Assembly: GCF_008727925.1 (NCBI RefSeq)
Contig: NZ_VTWT01000013.1
Coordinates: 62,001 to 126,000, forward strand
Source of the DNA: Adhaeribacter soli
Lineage (GTDB): Bacteria > Bacteroidota > Bacteroidia > Cytophagales > Hymenobacteraceae
DNA length: 64,000 bases
Direction of reading: 5' to 3'
The notes beneath the pieces were generated by a model that searched no databases, was not told where the DNA came from, and saw only the letters and a program-made list of their open reading frames with translations. How positions within the stretch are numbered: position 1 is the stretch's first letter; the number at the start of each line of letters is the position of its first letter. Positions 33,741-60,618 of the stretch are shown here, in pieces. A program made the position numbers and the translations under genes.

Positions 33741-33773
33741 AAACCTGTGAGGTTTTAAAAACCTCACAGGTTT
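33741..33773 (-). terminator. Terminator of the TlpA-like gene (AAACCTGTGAGGTTT repeat)
   Basis: AAACCTGTGAGGTTTT (33741-33756) and its complement (33758-33773) form an almost spacer-free palindrome. On the minus strand it is followed by a U run (plus-strand A run 33737-33743). A related hairpin lies at 55834-55866. Confidence 0.75.
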
Positions 33774-53708: not shown

Positions 53709-54593
53709 TCAGGAGCTGGCCCTGGTTTTCAGGGTACGTTCACACACAGACAAATTCACTTCTAAATTCTTATCTACCGTAACGATATGGTTAACCGGAA
53801 TTTCGTGCCAGTCGGAGCGTTTATTGCTTAGTTTTTCCGATACAATGAGCACAGCGTTATCCTTGTTATTTTTGCTTTTTTTCATCCGGCAAATACCCTT
53901 TTCGCAGGAATAGACCGCCCCTTCCGAATAATACAACGTAGAAGCCGGCAAACTTAGGTCTGAAACATACCGCACGGCAACAATTATATCGCCATTGGTT
54001 ACACAGGCATTGATATAACTCGGTTCCTTAACCTTCAGGCGGGCTTTTATCTGTTCAACTTCCACAATGGCATCTTCCAGCGCATTCGCAATTTTTATTG
54101 GGAGCTGTTTGGCTCGCTGCTTTTCCAACTGATGCAGAAATAAGGCAAACAAATGCTCCGAATCGGTAAGCCCTTCTATGTTGGCATAAATATTATCGGG
54201 CAGGTGCCGTACCATTTCCCGCTTTATTTTCTGAAAACCCTCAATGTCGCCGTTATGCATAAACAGGTACTGGCCATAATGGAACGGGTGACAATTCAGT
54301 TCGTTTACCGGCGAATCTGTGGCTGCCCGCACGTGGGCAAACATACAATCTGACGTAATTTTCGGGGCTATGTATTGCAGGTTCCGGTCGTTCCAGGCGG
54401 GTCTTACCGAAAGGAACCGGCCGGGCATATCATTCGCTTCAGGTGTATACCACCCCACTCCAAACCCATCGCCGTTCAATGGTTCCTCCATTTCACTGGC
54501 CTTTACACTCTGCTTAATCAGCGAATTTTTCGGCTTAAAAAGCAGGTCATACATCATAATCGGTTTTCCAATATAAGCTACAAACCGGCACAT
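53709..54593 (-). CDS. Class II glutamine amidotransferase (YafJ/EgtC-like)
   Basis: 294 residues starting MCRFVAYIG, so the Ntn nucleophile Cys is residue 2 and becomes N-terminal after Met removal. The GATase II motifs follow: LNGDGFGVGWYTP at about 40, FAHVRAATDS at about 86, NCHPFHYGQYLFMHNGDIEG at about 100 and TDSEHLFALFL at about 143. It hydrolyses a gamma-glutamyl amide or glutamine. EgtC, in ergothioneine synthesis, is a member, but YafJ-like proteins have no certain role. It lies on the same strand as the ligase/peptidase operon 523 bases upstream, but repeats separate them. Confidence 0.92.
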   Translation of the reverse strand: MCRFVAYIGKPIMMYDLLFKPKNSLIKQSVKASEMEEPLNGDGFGVGWYTPEANDMPGRFLSVRPAWNDRNLQYIAPKITSDCMFAHVRAATDSPVNELNCHPFHYGQYLFMHNGDIEGFQKIKREMVRHLPDNIYANIEGLTDSEHLFALFLHQLEKQRAKQLPIKIANALEDAIVEVEQIKARLKVKEPSYINACVTNGDIIVAVRYVSDLSLPASTLYYSEGAVYSCEKGICRMKKSKNNKDNAVLIVSEKLSNKRSDWHEIPVNHIVTVDKNLEVNLSVCERTLKTRASS

Positions 54594-55116: not shown

Positions 55117-55809
55117 TTATCTGGCTTTTTGAAAAGTTTTTACGATCGTTTCCTGCACGTTCTCCCAAACTTCGGCTTCCTCTAACGGGAATTTCTGGTT
55201 TACTTCCAGCTCAATACCCGCATATTGTTCATCCGGGAACATGCGCCGGAGGTGCGTCGTAAATCCATCAGCAGTGCCACGGTAGGGGTAATTGAACCTT
55301 ACTTTTAAATTGGGGTTAGCTTCTGAAAGCAATTTCTTCCAGCGGGCACAGAACTCATTTTCCCGCTTCCGTTTCGGGTCGTAAAGCAAACCAATGTCCG
55401 CATTCCGCAACACGCCGTTCAGCACCGGAGTAAACGAATGCACGGAAAGGTGCAGCACGCTATGGTCTTTTTCTATGAAACCGGAAATTGCTTCTTCCAC
55501 CGCCTGCCGGTACGGCACATAATGGTATTCCAGAATGGCGTTCTGTTTTTCTCTGGGCAGGTTTTTGGTAGCAATTGAGAATAAATTCGGGTGGCGTTTG
55601 GAGCGGTTCAGTTCTACCAAAAGCCGGCTCGTTTCCGAAAAAAAGGCAGCATCGGCTCCTGCAGAAACCAGCTTTTCGTAAAGCTTCAGTGCCCCGATGT
55701 CGTAGCCCCGATGGGTGGCTAGCAAGGCTTCGTGATCGGAAAAATAAGATGCGTATTCCGCCGGAATATCGCGGCCGCCGTGTTCACAGGTTATCAGAAT
55801 TTTCTGCAT
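55117..55809 (-). CDS. N-formylglutamate amidohydrolase family protein
   Basis: 230 residues. The family is recognisable from ITCEHGGRDIPAEYAS at the start, THRGYDIGALKLYEKL, SRLLVELNRSKRHPNLFS, the HLSVHSFTPVLNG motif at about residue 118, and RFNYPYRGTADGFTTHLR and GIELEVNQKF. These residues match the N-formylglutamate amidohydrolase/HutG2 fold, a zinc-dependent amide hydrolase. It is the last gene of the operon: 91 bases, with a hairpin, separate it from the GCS2 gene. In this operon it probably removes an acyl or aminoacyl group from the ligases' product, rather than acting in histidine breakdown; this is inference. Confidence 0.92.
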   Translation of the reverse strand: MQKILITCEHGGRDIPAEYASYFSDHEALLATHRGYDIGALKLYEKLVSAGADAAFFSETSRLLVELNRSKRHPNLFSIATKNLPREKQNAILEYHYVPYRQAVEEAISGFIEKDHSVLHLSVHSFTPVLNGVLRNADIGLLYDPKRKRENEFCARWKKLLSEANPNLKVRFNYPYRGTADGFTTHLRRMFPDEQYAGIELEVNQKFPLEEAEVWENVQETIVKTFQKAR

Positions 55810-55833
55810 TTCAATCTAATTTTAAAAGGCGAA

Positions 55834-55866
55834 AAACCTCACAGGTTTCAGAAACCGGTGAGGTTT
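55834..55866. repeat. AAACCTCACAGGTTT hairpin inside the operon
   Basis: AAACCTCACAGGTTTC (55834-55849) pairs with GAAACCGGTGAGGTTT (55851-55866) with one mismatch. It belongs to the same repeat type as 33741-33773 and could attenuate transcription between the GCS2 and amidohydrolase genes. Confidence 0.7.
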
Positions 55867-55900
55867 ATTAACCCGCTTTGTTTGAAATACGCTATGGTTT

Positions 55901-57148
55901 TTAACCCAAAAACTGCTTTCCTTCCTTCAGGCAATCAGCCAACTGTTCATATACGGCTTTGATCTTTTCCGGAGAAGGATTACCGTTCAGAGCTTTTACG
56001 ATCCGGGCAGAAAGGGTATCGTTCTGCAGGATAAAAGCCAGGGCTTGCCGGGTACTTTCTTCCGGAATGGAAGCGGTTAAAATGGTGTCGTACAAATGTT
56101 GCCAGAGTTCTTTGGCCGTACAGGTATCCCCTTTATCATACCCACAAAGCTTTAAATATGCGGGATTGTTAATTTCTGCCTGCTGTCCGTCTTTAACCAC
56201 CTTCCAGAGAATTTCAGCAAGGTCGTCTTCTTTCCAGTTTTGCTGTTCTGCAACCGAAACCCAACGCTCGGCCACCAGGGCTTTCAGGGTTTCTATCACG
56301 GCACTTAAAACGGCAATGTCAGCTTGCGGGCATTCCTGAATATCGATGATCCGGATCTCGATGGCACCCCGATCAAAACGGGCGATGGCGCCGCGGGAGT
56401 TCAGGAACTGGTCGCGCAAGATCTCGTCTTCGTCGTAAGGAGCAATGTCGGCGTAGATGCGTTTGAAGATTTTCTGCTCGTATTCCGCTTTGCTGAAGAC
56501 CCGTTCCGGAATTACTTTGCCGGCAATACTGGGGATCTGCTTCTGGTTGCTTTTATAAACTTCCAGTCGCGTATCGGAAAAGCCGGAAACCTGGTTATCC
56601 AGCACCGGCGAAGAAGCGCTGAGGGCCGGAATGATCGGCATTAAAATTCTTATGGCCGCGTGCAGTTTTCCGAATTCCTCGTCGTTGGCAAAAGGCAGGT
56701 TCAGGTGCGTGCTTTGCAGATTGGCCCAACCGTGGCCGCGGCAATCGAAGATCTTATTGTAGGCTTCGTAGATCTGGTTGTGCTCGTGCGGCCATAAACA
56801 CATTTCCCGGTACGGGTCCATGAACGGATGCGCGCCGCTGCCCAATAACCGGGCGTTGTATTTCTGAAGCAGTTGGTTTATATGGTTTACCTGGGCCTGG
56901 AATTTTTCAATTAAACCGGTTAGCGTTCTGGCCGGACCGTTGGTTTTCAGTTCAATTACGTGCAGCACCAGTTCGTTGCTCCAGGCCATATCGCCCAGCT
57001 CTACATCCGAATCGAATTTGCCGGCCACGTCATAAATAACTTTGTCGGTAATGGGCAGAATTTCCAGCGTGTCGTTTTTCACGATCATGTATTCCATTTC
57101 CACGCCATAGGCTTCAAACAAGTGCAGGGGTTTACGCGGACTGCTCAT
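55901..57148 (-). CDS. GCS2-type carboxylate-amine ligase (glutamate-cysteine ligase-like, YbdK/EgtA class)
   Basis: 415 residues, ATG start. The GCS2 fold is marked by GVEMEYMIVKND at the start (E-x-E metal ligands), LVLHVIELKTNGPA at about residue 64, GSGAHPFMDP at about 103, and NLQSTHLNLPF at about 145, then RGAIARFDRGAIEIRIIDIQ. These ligases use ATP to join glutamate, or another carboxylate, to an amine such as cysteine. The 5' end overlaps the RimK-like gene by 17 bases. Being in one operon with an ATP-grasp ligase makes a peptide product likely; real glutathione synthesis is doubtful because no gshB-type gene is identified here. Confidence 0.92.
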   Translation of the reverse strand: MSSPRKPLHLFEAYGVEMEYMIVKNDTLEILPITDKVIYDVAGKFDSDVELGDMAWSNELVLHVIELKTNGPARTLTGLIEKFQAQVNHINQLLQKYNARLLGSGAHPFMDPYREMCLWPHEHNQIYEAYNKIFDCRGHGWANLQSTHLNLPFANDEEFGKLHAAIRILMPIIPALSASSPVLDNQVSGFSDTRLEVYKSNQKQIPSIAGKVIPERVFSKAEYEQKIFKRIYADIAPYDEDEILRDQFLNSRGAIARFDRGAIEIRIIDIQECPQADIAVLSAVIETLKALVAERWVSVAEQQNWKEDDLAEILWKVVKDGQQAEINNPAYLKLCGYDKGDTCTAKELWQHLYDTILTASIPEESTRQALAFILQNDTLSARIVKALNGNPSPEKIKAVYEQLADCLKEGKQFLG

Positions 57149-58607
57149 TAGGAATATTCTTTTGAATTTCGATTCTTCGTTTAATGGATTTCAAAATGCT
57201 CAGGTACAGGTCTTTTTTCAGCAACTGGTCTTCGTACCCGTAGTCGATGCTCGGGTTGTCGTTCACCTCAATTACGTATGCCTGCCCGTTTATTTCCTTC
57301 AGGTCCACGCCGTACAAGCCATCGCCGATTAAATTGGCAGCTTTCAGGGCCGTGTGCATGACATTAAAAGGCACTTCGCCAATGTCTACGGTTTCGGCGT
57401 TGCCGCTGATGTTGTTTTTCTTGCCTTTCCAGTTATAGATCTGCCAGTGATCTTTGGCCATGTAATACTTGCAGGCGTAAAGCGGTTGACGGTCCAGCAC
57501 GCCGATGCGCCAGTCGAAATCGGTGGGCATAAATTCCTGGCCGATGATGAGTTCCGACGTGGTGAGCATGCTGTCCAGTTCCTCGTTCAGCTGGGCTTCG
57601 TCGCAAACTTTTACCACGCCTTGCGAGAACGAACTGTCGGGTTTCTTCAGCACCGTGGGCAGGCCCAACTCCTGCACCACCTGGTCGCGGTTATCTTTGT
57701 GGATGATCATGGTTTTCGGGATCGGCACTTTGGCTTTGGTCAGCAGTTCGGCTAAATAAACCTTGTTCGTGCAACGCAATATCGAAACCGGATCATCGAT
57801 CACCACCAGGCCATCGGCGTGGGCGCGGCGGGCAAAACGGTAGGTATGGTGGTTTACCGAAGTAGTTTCCCGGATGAACAAAGCATCGAATTCTGAAAGG
57901 CGTTTGTAATCGTCTTTGGTAATAAGTTCAGTGGAAAAACCCAGGGTATGCGCGGCCTCGATAAACTGCTGAATGGCTTTGCGGTTGCTTGGCGGGTCGC
58001 TTTCCAGCGGGTTCGTTAAGATGGCCAGATCGTAGATCTTCGCTTTGGGTTTGGCGCCGCTGAAACGGTGACGGGCAAAGTAGGCCTTGGCAAAGTTCAT
58101 TAAATATTTGCGGTGGTGCTCCGGCACTTCGTTCAGCGGAATGGGCGAAATGTTGTGCAGGTTCCACTCTTTGTTGAATACAAATTCGGCCCGGAGCAAG
58201 GGCGCCTGGAAAAGGTCGTGCAGTTGCTTGCTCAGTTTTTCGTACTTTCTGGCCACGTTCTGCCCGAAATAAATGCTCAGGGTAAACACCCGCGATTTTA
58301 TATCCGAAAGGCTTTTCTGGATCAGGTCGTCCATTTCGTTCGTAATGCTCCGCACGATCGTCTGGCTTTTCAGGTCCTGGATGGTGGTAACGTTCGGAAT
58401 AGCCCGGTGGCCGCGGGCTTCGGCCAGCAGCGACACGTAATAGCCGGTACTCTGGTATTTGTAAGAGCGGCAAAGGTTAAAAATGCGGGCGTTCTTAATT
58501 TCGGTGTAAGCCGGATCGGTAAGGTATGCTTGCGCTGCCACTACTTCAACGTCTTCAATGTTAAAATCCCAGTCTTTCGGATTATTAACGATTACAATCT
58601 TGCGCAT
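57132..58607 (-). CDS. RimK-like ATP-grasp ligase with RLAN N-terminal domain
   Basis: 491 residues. Residues 1-170 follow the RLAN pattern (RimK-like ATP-grasp N-terminal domain: VEVVAAQAYLTDPAYTEIKN, RIFNLCRSYKYQSTGYYVSL). The ATP-grasp part (about 190-480) has a central DALFIRETTSVNHHTYRF segment, the phosphate-binding loop LKKPDSSFSQGVVKV, and the metal-binding C-terminal EVNDNPSIDYG. Relatives add glutamate or other amino acids to peptides or proteins. The stop overlaps the GCS2 start by 17 bases, and the C39-like gene ends 4 bases upstream of its ATG. The acceptor substrate is unknown. Confidence 0.92.
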   Translation of the reverse strand: MRKIVIVNNPKDWDFNIEDVEVVAAQAYLTDPAYTEIKNARIFNLCRSYKYQSTGYYVSLLAEARGHRAIPNVTTIQDLKSQTIVRSITNEMDDLIQKSLSDIKSRVFTLSIYFGQNVARKYEKLSKQLHDLFQAPLLRAEFVFNKEWNLHNISPIPLNEVPEHHRKYLMNFAKAYFARHRFSGAKPKAKIYDLAILTNPLESDPPSNRKAIQQFIEAAHTLGFSTELITKDDYKRLSEFDALFIRETTSVNHHTYRFARRAHADGLVVIDDPVSILRCTNKVYLAELLTKAKVPIPKTMIIHKDNRDQVVQELGLPTVLKKPDSSFSQGVVKVCDEAQLNEELDSMLTTSELIIGQEFMPTDFDWRIGVLDRQPLYACKYYMAKDHWQIYNWKGKKNNISGNAETVDIGEVPFNVMHTALKAANLIGDGLYGVDLKEINGQAYVIEVNDNPSIDYGYEDQLLKKDLYLSILKSIKRRIEIQKNIPNEQSA

Positions 58608-58611
58608 TTAT

Positions 58612-59391
58612 TCAGGAAAGTGATTGAGTAATGATTTCGGATTCGGGTACCAGGTCTGGTTTCAGGTTGCTGTCCCGGGGTTCTATGATTAAAATATTGG
58701 CATCGTAGGTAACCATGCCCAGCATAATGGAATTGATGAGGCGCGACACGTTTACTTGGTAGTAATTATTCCGGAAAAACGGATTTTCCTGATACGGATC
58801 GGCCACTATAATTTTATCTTTTTCGGGCGTGAAGCCGCAAAGCACCACAAAATGCCCCAGCGGTTCGCCCCGGATATCGTCGTAAACACTTTCGTCCCGG
58901 TCATTGGTCCGCTCCCTGGCACAGTTGTACAGATACGTGGCGCTCAGCCCCGTCAGGATTGGAATGCCTTTGCTGAAATGTTCATCCAGAAGTTTCGGCG
59001 TCAGGTCCTCGCAGCATAGTTCCCCGCCCAGCTGCAGAAATTCGATGTATGCCTTGGAAGCCATGTGAAGCTTGGCATCGTGCTTATAATGCATCTGTTC
59101 TTGCAGGTTCTTGATGATCTTCTCGTTGGTGGAACGAAACCAGGTCGGATCGAACACGTGCAGGTTGTAGGAATAAAGCCGCGCTTTGTAGCCGCGTTTC
59201 AAGGCATGGCAGGCCAGCAAAACGGCCAGTGTCCCCCCTTCCGAAAGGAAAGAAACTTCCGAGATCACATCGTCGAGCGAAATAAAATCCTGGTAATACT
59301 GATACACGGCATGCAGGCTCGTCGGTCCGCAAGTGGAATCATCGGGTTGGGTCAGGATCTTAAGTTTGTTCAGGAGCTTTATATCAAGCAC
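58612..59391 (-). CDS. C39-like papain-fold peptidase
   Basis: 259 residues from a GTG. A Cys-His-Asp triad is visible: CGPTSLHAVYQYY with Cys 21, GEPLGHFVVLCGF with His 180, and KIIVADPYQEN with Asp 198. The order and spacing fit the C39-like (DUF3335-type) family, which is often encoded next to RimK-like ligases. It has no signal peptide or membrane segment, so it is cytoplasmic and not a bacteriocin exporter. It is the first gene of the four-gene operon. It may trim a precursor peptide or release a peptide tag made by the ligases; substrate unknown. Confidence 0.88.
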   Translation of the reverse strand: MLDIKLLNKLKILTQPDDSTCGPTSLHAVYQYYQDFISLDDVISEVSFLSEGGTLAVLLACHALKRGYKARLYSYNLHVFDPTWFRSTNEKIIKNLQEQMHYKHDAKLHMASKAYIEFLQLGGELCCEDLTPKLLDEHFSKGIPILTGLSATYLYNCARERTNDRDESVYDDIRGEPLGHFVVLCGFTPEKDKIIVADPYQENPFFRNNYYQVNVSRLINSIMLGMVTYDANILIIEPRDSNLKPDLVPESEIITQSLS

Positions 59392-59934: not shown

Positions 59935-60618
59935 ATGAATTTTAGAACGTTACTTTTTTCGGTGTTTTCCCTACTGTTTCTGAACCTGCCGGTTGCGGCG
60001 CAGAGCAAATTCAAACTAAAGAACGGCGACCTGCTGTTCCAGGACCTGGATTGCGGCGGCCTTTGCGATGCCATTGAAAGCGTAACGACAGGCTACAACA
60101 ACGCTACTTTTTCCCATGTAGGTATTGTAAAGATTCAGCCGAACGGAAAAATTGAGGTATTGGAAGCCATTGGCAAAAATGTGCATTACACGCCGTTGGA
60201 AAAATTCCTGAACCGCCAGCTCGATGCCGAGAAAAAGCCCAAAGTTGCGGTCGGCCGGCTGCAAAAACCGTATCAGAATTTAGTGGCAACCGCTTTGGCG
60301 AAGGGAGAAAAGCTGCTCGGAAAGCCTTACGACGATGTATTTGCCATGGATAACGATGCTTATTACTGTTCCGAACTGATCTATGATATGTTTAAGGCCG
60401 CCAATAATAACCAGCCCGTTTTTGATTTGGCCCCTATGACTTACGCCACGCCTGGTACCGAAACCATTATGCCGGTGTGGGAAGAATATTTCCAGAAGCT
60501 GAATGCCCGCGTGCCGCAAAACGACCCCGGATTAAACCCTGGCGGTATGTCGTGCTCTAAGAAACTGAAAATGTATTTCCCTTACGGCAAGCCGGGTACC
60601 CGTAACCCCGCTTTGTAG
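59935..60618 (+). CDS. YiiX/YebB-like cysteine hydrolase (permuted NlpC/P60 fold)
   Basis: 227 residues with a signal peptide (about 1-22, NLPVAAQ). It has the YiiX-like pattern: KNGDLLFQDLDCGGLCDAIE, NATFSHVGIV with His 61, and NDAYYCSELIYDMF with Cys 145. This is the circularly permuted NlpC/P60 order, in which His precedes the nucleophilic Cys. It should act in the periplasm on peptidoglycan peptides or lipid esters; the substrate is unknown. It is divergent from the ligase/peptidase operon, and its own promoter lies in the intervening repeat region. Confidence 0.9.
   Translation: MNFRTLLFSVFSLLFLNLPVAAQSKFKLKNGDLLFQDLDCGGLCDAIESVTTGYNNATFSHVGIVKIQPNGKIEVLEAIGKNVHYTPLEKFLNRQLDAEKKPKVAVGRLQKPYQNLVATALAKGEKLLGKPYDDVFAMDNDAYYCSELIYDMFKAANNNQPVFDLAPMTYATPGTETIMPVWEEYFQKLNARVPQNDPGLNPGGMSCSKKLKMYFPYGKPGTRNPAL

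Follow-up and report, generated by a model that had tools for sequence, protein, structure and literature searches.

A ligase and hydrolase cassette of Adhaeribacter soli that may build and recycle a small capped peptide

Introduction

ArgX/LysX and RimK are enzymes that add amino acids at a carboxylate end, RimK acting on ribosomal protein S6. RimB reverses RimK, and Dop reverses pupylation. Gene neighbourhoods combining an RLAN-RimK ligase, a GCS2 ligase, an NFGA enzyme and a papain-like protein were reportedly predicted by Iyer, Abhiman, Burroughs and Aravind in 2009 (Mol BioSyst 5:1636), a line of work from which the Pfam RLAN domain presumably stems, and we know of no experimentally established product of such a neighbourhood. 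Among described pathways, the synthesis of NAGGN employs AsnO-Ngg and a glutamyl aminopeptidase; a GNAT-family enzyme that also ligates makes the capped dipeptide, with the peptidase in the operon (PMC8070244). ATP-grasp ligases also make graspetides (PMC8939145). Open-licence papers yielded no study of the cassette itself, and a term search in PMC2922099 and PMC4431377 gave no mention of RLAN, GCS2, formylglutamate or C39.

The window analysed here is a 64,000-nucleotide stretch of the Adhaeribacter soli genome, in which these four families are encoded at 55117–59391. The present analysis provides co-occurrence counts, an alternation of GNAT and GCS2 across 35 genomes, and arguments against S6 and glutathione as the cassette's business.

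The four gene products

All four genes lie on the minus strand. The first, with a GTG start, encodes a C39-like papain-fold cysteine peptidase of 259 residues (58612..59391); it is followed after a gap of 4 bases by an RLAN-RimK ATP-grasp ligase of 491 residues (57132..58607), which overlaps by 17 bases with the gene of a GCS2 carboxylate-amine ligase of 415 residues (55901..57148). After a gap of 91 bases comes an N-formylglutamate amidohydrolase family protein (FGase), a putative metal amidohydrolase of 230 residues (55117..55809). Open reading frames and Pfam matches agree with the original prediction in families, one-strand packing and spacing, and its description of a self-contained set with intact catalytic residues also holds, the putative catalytic positions being invariant among the aligned relatives.

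The 91-base gap contains a hairpin-forming inverted repeat (55837..55863, strand unassigned), which is not among the sites listed by the terminator scan and is possibly unrelated to the cassette; an element resembling it lies at 33741–33773. Promoter and terminator scans gave no more sites than shuffled sequences, and the Bacteroidota motif TAnnTTTG is absent upstream of the C39-like gene.

The C39-like protein exceeds the Pfam cut-offs of PF13529 (32.4 bits, cut-off 24) and PF03412 (26.4 bits, cut-off 22) and weakly matches PF09778 (22.3 bits, below the cut-off of 28.1). The Cys, His and Asp of the papain fold and the oxyanion Gln (C21, H180, D198 and Q15) do not vary in any of the 41 aligned relatives, which places the protein in the C39-like papain-fold group. 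Its profile matches include the C39 domains of ComA/PCAT; in ABC exporters, C39 domains cut double-glycine leaders.

The RLAN-RimK protein belongs to its family by both PF14401 (RLAN, 172.2 bits, cut-off 25) and PF08443 (RimK, 44.1 bits, cut-off 21). The RLAN match covers residues 25–170, and residues 192–481 form a complete LysX/RimK-like ATP-grasp ligase, in which K321, R367, D435, E447 and N449 are invariant in 47 of 47 aligned relatives; these residue counts, the RLAN tree and alignments A2 and A4 leave out one frameshifted locus (L031), whose RLAN and GCS2 sequences are divided between frames. The predicted model (pLDDT 85.0) was compared by fold with little coverage of residues 1–190, and the best matches of its ATP-grasp part are ArgX/LysX (Z 26.6–25.8) and RimK (Z 24.9–25.4), followed by D-Ala ligases and glutathione synthetase (Z 21–23). 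In RimK, R189 and N262 touch the terminal residue E5 of bound poly-glutamate, and R64 and R8 touch E3 (PMC10092738). R189, N262 and R64 correspond to R367, N449 and R246 of the cassette ligase, each kept in 47 of 47 relatives, and R8 is replaced by N199 (N in 41, D in 5 and Q in 1 of 47). The protein falls outside the S6-ligase models (NF007764, 27.6 bits against 331; TIGR00768, 75.5 against 143.4) and outside the NAGGN synthetase model TIGR03103, to which it has no match at E 0.001.

The GCS2 protein, the sole PF04107 match in the genome (103.5 bits, cut-off 21), is assigned to its family by this match and by the GCL-type fold of its predicted model (pLDDT 93.4). The model matches YbdK structures nearly end to end (1tt4, Z 38.4, 345 aligned residues; 1r8g, Z 38.0, 347 aligned) and plant glutamate-cysteine ligase (2gwc, Z 34.0, 363 aligned), with Dop/PafA well below (Z 15.2–20.6) and no PafA/Dop match to the protein in Pfam at E 0.001. 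These relatives were found by fold comparison, a PDB profile search giving 0 matches at E 0.01. The protein lies under all curated NCBIfam cut-offs for glutamate-cysteine ligases and YbdK, the best being TIGR02050 (63.8 against 176.4) and the other eight scoring 23.1–58.8.

FGase is a family member by PF05013 (83.2 bits, cut-off 28.9), with H10, H120, H124 and E150 invariant in 33 of 33 aligned relatives and 2odf as its nearest solved relative; it matched no NCBIfam family. The family is catabolic and acts in histidine degradation.

Co-occurrence, order and spread

In a sample of 296 genomes of the phylum, with cut-offs for strong matches (E 1e-80, 1e-98, 1e-75, 1e-70 and 1e-50) set after the gaps among matches had been viewed, the GCS2 type (E<=1e-80) occurs in 24 genomes and in all 24 beside RLAN-RimK (Fisher p 3e-27, for genomes that are not phylogenetically independent). 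The arrangement of the genes is not due to chance. The C39 type is confined to cassette genomes (22 of 24), and the FGase type is found in 16 of the 24 and in two others that lack the ligases (G081, G151). Rare co-occurrence in related genomes, which would have refuted the original prediction, is not what the sample shows. As 2 of the 24 genomes lack the C39 type and 8 lack the FGase type, the core consists of two genes, RLAN-RimK and GCS2, and FGase is accessory. Because some loci behind the probe alignments (A2–A4) come from genomes of the sample itself, the strong positives arise partly by construction and it is the absences elsewhere that are informative; weak matches outside cassette genomes were identified by ORF length alone.

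Across 115 loci (L031–L145, some genomes being fetched twice), same-strand neighbours lie within 20 bp in 82 of 90 C39–RLAN, 91 of 102 RLAN–GCS2 and 74 of 79 GCS2–FGase pairs, the largest gaps being 873 and 344 bp for RLAN–GCS2 and, for GCS2–FGase, some 4.7 kb in each of three loci from Fibrobacter. The order recurs in Ignavibacteria, in Fibrobacter and in single Leptospiraceae (L141) and Desulfobulbaceae (L145) MAGs, each represented by one contig that may be mis-binned. As the best 80 of 157 confirmed loci were kept, counts of named organisms favour close relatives. In the RLAN tree, Hymenobacteraceae stand beside Ignavibacteria and apart from three genomes of the same order; holding Hymenobacteraceae together with these three, a grouping named after the tree had been seen, is not rejected (p-AU 0.0575), so that only patchiness, and not horizontal transfer, is claimed. 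Mirror-tree correlations of pairwise identities (r 0.58–0.82), which are not corrected for shared ancestry, were not used as proof. Viral contigs gave no match to the cassette, and six phage records gave partial matches (E 9e-6 or better), none covering more than 80% of the protein. No plasmid record matched C39, and 11 matched RLAN-RimK over at least 80% of its length, all below 60% identity.

Most genes around the cassette are lineage-specific, and no outside neighbour was seen to be constant across loci. Genes named by eye as DnaJ-like, TetR-like, aldehyde-dehydrogenase-like and pyrB-like recur in more than one lineage in varied places, the DnaJ-like gene within the unit or close to it in Pontibacter and at three loci of Fibrobacter. 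When ORFs of 20–110 residues in the 700-bp flanks were clustered, none of the best 25 clusters by lineage number joined different bacterial families; the widest, a minus-strand ORF in 6 loci, is restricted to Ignavibacterial loci. With neither a cross-lineage small ORF among these clusters nor a constant neighbour, nothing next to the cassette stands out as a dedicated protein substrate.

RLAN is present in 35 of the 296 genomes: 24 have the GCS2 type, the other 11 have GNAT instead, and none has both. The GNAT domain is fused to RLAN-RimK in 10 of the 11 and adjacent in one (G155, locus L064), where the RLAN match is weak (29.2 bits) and the ATP-grasp ORF has no RLAN match; GNAT exceeds the Pfam cut-off in all 10 fusions and in L064. 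GNAT and GCS2 thus look like alternative partners of RLAN-RimK, by a GNAT profile built from the ten fused proteins themselves, which could miss other kinds of GNAT beside GCS2 cassettes. The GNAT parts resemble RimI, a modifier of protein N-termini (64.7–87.4 bits in three proteins, cut-off 86.4, exceeded by Azospirillum L147 at 87.4). In L147, a GNAT-fused papain-like relative of C39 adjoins RLAN-RimK with no GCS2 beside it.

Proposed function and alternatives

The reading we favour, though tentatively, is that the cassette works in the cytoplasm to build and recycle a small, non-ribosomal, N-capped and probably gamma-glutamyl peptide. Judging from its fold, GCS2 would use ATP to activate the gamma-carboxylate of glutamate or a glutamate-like acid and couple it to the amine of a single amino acid or of a short peptide, creating a gamma-glutamyl cap; it is the fold that suggests glutamate, as the score is far below every curated glutamate-cysteine-ligase model, and the alternation with GNAT that suggests capping. 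RLAN-RimK, to go by its clade, would activate the free carboxylate of the capped or growing molecule and add an amino acid, with the RLAN domain probably selecting the substrate. The putative hydrolases C39 and FGase may cleave the finished compound or wrongly formed intermediates and release their amino acids for reuse, so that the cassette could make and trim its product as originally proposed, although recycling is not obligatory because both are dispensable. GNAT-RLAN-RimK proteins, and GNAT-C39 with RLAN-RimK, would be sister systems in which GNAT makes the capping amide in place of GCS2. The likeliest use would be as a compatible solute or cofactor; no transporter or stress regulator hinting at an osmolyte role lies in the unit. 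Several findings speak against this reading: the RimI-like GNAT parts would suit a protein target just as well, the FGase type is present in two genomes that lack the ligases, and the ATP-grasp part does not match one group of enzymes exclusively, with D-Ala ligases only 3–4 Z lower. A proteobacterial RLAN-RimK (L146) that neither GNAT nor GCS2 adjoins argues against the capping partner.

The main rival, which we consider unlikely though not strongly so, is reversible protein tagging, in which RLAN-RimK would extend the C-terminus of a host protein encoded elsewhere, GCS2 or GNAT would modify another amine of it, and C39 and FGase would detach the tag. Pairs of ligases and hydrolases suit a reversible mark, RimK itself modifies a protein, the GNAT partner resembles RimI, Dop/PafA share the GCS2-type fold, and a DnaJ-like gene accompanies the unit in Pontibacter and the three Fibrobacter loci, as named by eye. 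Against this, the GCS2 fold is much nearer to ligases of free substrates (Z 34–38) than to PafA/Dop, the R8 contact of RimK is not kept, and neither a constant neighbour nor a cross-lineage small ORF offers a candidate target. The worry that the target is S6 is largely answered by a canonical RimK elsewhere in the genome (388.1 bits, cut-off 331) beside a RimB-family protease.

A gamma-Glu-Cys thiol pathway, with GCS2 serving as EgtA for ergothioneine or RLAN-RimK finishing a glutathione-like tripeptide, is improbable. In its favour, the only GCS2 of the genome is nearest in fold to YbdK and plant GCL, EgtD (332.8 bits, cut-off 290.9) and EgtB (570.3 bits, cut-off 360) adjoin each other on contig C8, and a gene for an EgtC-like class II glutamine-amidotransferase-fold hydrolase (53709..54593, minus strand) lies 523 bases downstream on the same strand, scoring 204.8 bits, below the TIGR03442 family cut-off of 218.65. 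Among the loci examined it is kept beside the cassette only in Adhaeribacter terrigena, and it is probably outside the unit; the original prediction did not mention it. Taken together, the RLAN genomes carry EgtD more often than the rest (18 of 35 against 74 of 261, p 0.010 before any correction for relatedness), but this excess is owed as much to the GNAT form, which lacks the GCS2 type and has EgtD in 7 of 11 genomes; for the GCS2 form alone, EgtD is present in 11 of 24 genomes and in 81 of the other 272 (p 0.11). The EgtC-like gene (E<1e-50) occurs in 4 of 24 cassette genomes against 30 of 272 (p 0.50), with none of the 296 over the family cut-off, and in two genomes of the host's family (G072, G166) EgtD is present although the cassette GCS2 is absent, leaving the ergothioneine link weak. 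As to glutathione, the lack of a glutathione synthetase had been taken as an argument against it, and indeed no GshB exceeds the cut-off (best 74.6 and 38.3 bits against 299.05, the former being the canonical RimK), but this alone is insufficient, since the ATP-grasp partner could serve a GshB-like second step. A glutathione-like tripeptide is unlikely because the genome carries the bacillithiol gene BshC (440.7 bits, cut-off 265.8) and the cassette is distant from known GCL/GshB models. Together with the separate RimK/RimB-family pair, these findings make glutathione or a ribosomal protein tail an unlikely product.

Salvage or damage control, with hydrolysis as the main activity and the ligases re-synthesising or detoxifying a stray acyl-amino acid or isopeptide, is more doubtful still: the FGase family is catabolic, and 2 of the 18 genomes with the FGase type lack the ligases, but the constant core is two ligases and not the hydrolases. 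Least credible is a ribosomal, graspetide- or RiPP-like peptide that C39 would process and the ligases would extend or cross-link, a reading that would suit C39 leader cutting, the ComA/PCAT matches and the graspetide ligases but conflicts with a LysX/RimK-like ATP-grasp part, no transporter in the unit and no cross-lineage small ORF within 700 bp among the clusters listed.

Returning to the capped small peptide, a bolder form of it, possible but rather doubtful, is a third pairing of a GCS-fold with an ATP-grasp ligase beside that of glutathione, making a gamma-glutamyl-capped cofactor or solute that has enzymes of its own to take it apart and a GNAT-capped sister compound, in Bacteroidota, Ignavibacteriota, Fibrobacterota and, at the least, in single MAGs of Spirochaetota and Thermodesulfobacteriota. 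If the capped-peptide reading holds, many common bacteria, among them soil Hymenobacteraceae, gut Fibrobacter and Ignavibacteria, would make a small peptide that is not known to have been isolated. The four-gene unit is easily transferable to a laboratory host, and the alternation of GNAT and GCS2 predicts that a related core bears a different cap in each form, directly testable by mass spectrometry.

Comparison with known systems

The neighbourhoods predicted in 2009 place the same families side by side as the cassette does. Glutathione synthesis, by GCL and GshB or the fused GshF, likewise pairs a GCS-fold with an ATP-grasp ligase, but neither cassette ligase reaches the curated models, the cassette adds two hydrolases, and the host has a bacillithiol gene in place of a GshB over the cut-off. 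RimK-RimB and RloA-RloB-RloC resemble the cassette in opposing an ATP-grasp ligase with a peptidase (PMC12239564), whereas the cassette has an RLAN domain, a GCS2 partner and C39/FGase in place of a retropepsin. The papain-like GNAT-DUF3335 (PF11814) proteins (PMC10318531) correspond to the C39 relative that adjoins RLAN-RimK in Azospirillum; unlike the cassette C39, this protein is fused to GNAT and has no GCS2 beside it. NAGGN synthesis offers a model of how the cassette might work and comes closest to the GNAT-fused RLAN form, although L064 and L147 reach only 38.1 and 36.0 bits on the Ngg model TIGR03103 (cut-off 569), through the GNAT part alone, and the cassette uses GCS2 and has no asparagine synthase.

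Gene arrangement and protein families

The cassette genes lie on the minus strand of the window where the original prediction placed them: the C39-like peptidase (59391-58612), the RLAN-RimK ATP-grasp ligase (58607-57132), the GCS2 ligase (57148-55901) and the N-formylglutamate-amidohydrolase-like enzyme (FGase, 55809-55117). All four proteins score over their Pfam cut-offs and none reaches a curated NCBIfam cut-off, so they represent subfamilies that lack a curated NCBIfam name. The closest named relative is Adhaeribacter terrigena, whose RLAN-RimK is 89% identical; the window comes from an Adhaeribacter-like genome within Hymenobacteraceae. In the C39 protein, the aligned residues form a complete catalytic set, and there is also a weak Pfam match to PF09778, a family that PMC10318531 describes as close to DUF3335. 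The nearest structure to FGase, 2odf, was deposited as hypothetical.

A palindromic element of the AAACCTGTGAGG / CCTCACAGGTTT type occurs twice in the window (33741-33773 and 55837-55863); the latter copy falls between GCS2 and FGase, perhaps as an attenuator or a mobile repeat. Divergent from the cassette is a gene for a YiiX-like permuted papain-fold (C92) protein (59935-60618, plus strand), which among the other loci examined stands beside the cassette only in A. terrigena.

Conservation of the cassette

Co-occurrence was counted in a single sample from the phylum, comprising 296 genomes. Of these, 35 encode RLAN, which none of 14 control genomes does. The GCS2 type (E<=1e-80) is present in 24 genomes, all within these 35 and always adjoining RLAN, and the C39 type (E<=1e-98) in 22, all within the 24. 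The FGase type (E<=1e-75) is found in 18 genomes, namely 16 of the 24 and two others (G081 and G151), where its neighbours are genes other than the ligases; the complete set occurs in 14 of the 24. The idea survives the refuting condition of the original prediction, rare co-occurrence in related genomes, with GCS2 beside RLAN in 24/24 genomes. Relaxing the threshold to E<=0.001 adds much weaker matches in 11 more genomes (GCS2), 29 (C39) and 3 (FGase); judged by ORF length, the weak C39 matches are mostly ABC exporters of ~730 aa and the weak GCS2 matches mostly proteins of 370-410 aa. Cassette-type FGase genes without RLAN or GCS2 are located at L154:5995-6705 and L155:5995-6705, in two genomes of one genus.

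The 80 named loci analysed, out of 157 confirmed, cover, judged by record title, Hymenobacteraceae, Imperialibacter, Marinilabiliaceae, Flavobacteriales, Ignavibacteria and Fibrobacter, as well as Leptospiraceae and Desulfobulbaceae with a single MAG each. GCS2 is present in 78, C39 in 69, FGase in 65 and the full set in 63; the two loci without GCS2 (L121, L136) lie on contigs of 3.2 and 6.5 kb. Flanking genes are mostly lineage-dependent, and the few families recurring in more than one lineage, such as a DnaJ-like one in Pontibacter and three Fibrobacter loci, do so at varied places. The cassette thus stands for the most part on its own as a unit, with RLAN-RimK and GCS2 as its core.

The DnaJ-like gene, named by eye, directly precedes C39 in Fibrobacter loci L118-L120 and in many Pontibacter loci (e.g., L079:12232-13296) follows FGase at a distance of two genes, on the same strand in both cases. 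Seven other Fibrobacter loci (L122, L124-L129) hold RLAN-RimK and GCS2 without C39 or FGase in the available stretch, often with wider gaps, and are either minimal units or incomplete contigs. In genome G179 (L031:5794-9312), both ligase genes are broken across two frames, reflecting either a decaying cassette or sequencing errors.

GNAT as a probable alternative partner

No GCS2 of the cassette type was detected at E<=0.001 in the other 11 of the 35 RLAN genomes. In 10 of these 11, a GNAT domain is fused in front of RLAN-RimK, giving proteins of about 640-720 aa in which both domains exceed the Pfam cut-offs (10/10). In genome G155 (L064), where the RLAN match is weak (29.2 bits), a GNAT-DUF3335 (C39-like) gene overlaps the ATP-grasp gene, and in Azospirillum (L147) a GNAT-DUF3335 ORF shares one base with the RLAN-RimK ORF. 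A P. aeruginosa plasmid RLAN-RimK gene (L146) has neither GNAT nor GCS2 beside it. A profile of the fused GNAT domains matched none of the GCS2-type loci, of which mostly 7-8 kb on each side was covered. DUF3335 is often GNAT-fused, and the GNAT part might be a peptide ligase or acetylase, according to the account in PMC10318531, which cites Iyer 2009. GNAT and GCS2 thus appear equivalent in role, each forming one amide, which is probably an N-terminal cap.

Ligase folds and residues

The predicted GCS2 model (pLDDT 93.4) matches YbdK (Z 38) and the plant glutamate-cysteine ligase 2gwc (Z 34), solved with a transition-state analogue, over almost the full length; scores fall to Z 22.6-25.4 for other GCL types, 15.2-20.6 for Dop/PafA and 13-15 for glutamine synthetases. 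In the RLAN-RimK model (pLDDT 85.0 overall), residues 192-481 resemble ArgX/LysX (Z 26), closely followed by RimK (Z 25); Z is 3-5 lower for D-Ala ligases and for glutathione synthetase.

The residues of P. aeruginosa RimK that hold poly-glutamate include R64, R189, N262, S68, S7 and R8, as named in PMC10092738. With that paper's numbering taken as PDB chain numbering, and S14 left out, the first three map to R246, R367 and N449, invariant in 47/47 RLAN-RimK sequences, and S68 maps to S250 (S in 26/47). The equivalents of S7 and R8, whose placement relies on where the structural alignment begins, are T198 (V in 30/47, T in 7/47) and N199 (R in 0/47). On this mapping the ligation site seems to be retained, the groove for the S6 tail in part not.

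Proposed mechanism and alternative roles

The likeliest mechanism, put forward tentatively, is that GCS2 would join gamma-glutamate (or a similar acid) to an amine as a cap, RLAN-RimK would add to the carboxylate end of the molecule, and C39 and FGase would dismantle the product. Reversible tagging of a protein, instead of a small peptide, is the main rival reading, though less likely.

A general role in ergothioneine synthesis, with GCS2 acting as EgtA, seems not very likely. GCS2 may nevertheless serve as EgtA in A. soli itself, since EgtB and EgtD are encoded there, an EgtC-like gene lies downstream of the cassette at a distance of 523 bases, and the genome has no GCS2 besides that of the cassette. 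At E<1e-70, and with p values that ignore relatedness, EgtD occurs in 11/24 GCS2-cassette genomes versus 81/272 others (p 0.11), in 7/11 genomes of the GNAT form (p 0.039) and in 18/35 RLAN genomes versus 74/261 others (p 0.010). The EgtC-like gene occurs in 4/24 versus 30/272 (p 0.50). The EgtD excess is no smaller in the GNAT form, which lacks a GCS2 of this type, and this disfavours GCS2 as EgtA in general. The EgtB/EgtD pair is on a contig other than that of the cassette. The EgtC-like gene, of class II amidotransferase fold (53709-54593, -), is kept at this place in A. terrigena (L066:11562-12446) and is not beside the cassette in the other loci examined.

A co-encoded ribosomal precursor as substrate is not likely, none having been found among the 25 most widely shared clusters of small ORFs in the 700-bp flanks. 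Glutathione synthesis, already argued against in the original prediction, is not likely either: the genome contains no GshB over the cut-off, in agreement with the predicted absence of glutathione synthetase, and BshC for bacillithiol synthesis is present. Nor is the cassette likely to be a canonical S6 ligase, as a separate RimK (388.1 bits, cut-off 331) is encoded elsewhere in the genome, adjoining a Zn_protease/RimB-family gene that stays under the RimB cut-off (80.5 vs 200). For a further ATP-grasp protein of the genome, the closest match is the D-cycloserine synthetase DcsG (L152:1339-2226, -; 150.1 bits, cut-off 360).

Comparison with known systems

Neighbourhoods of this kind were reportedly predicted by Iyer in 2009, and no report of a product of the cassette was found in the open-licence literature searched. 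What the present analysis adds is quantitative: the constant pairing of the ligases, the exchangeable GNAT/GCS2 partner and the evidence against two textbook roles. In the synthesis of the capped dipeptide NAGGN, as described in PMC8070244, Ngg acetylates one glutamine and links a second, and the operon includes a peptidase. As a functional model, NAGGN synthesis fits the GNAT branch of RLAN-RimK best. The cassette itself is not of the same family, TIGR03103 being unmatched by the window proteins.
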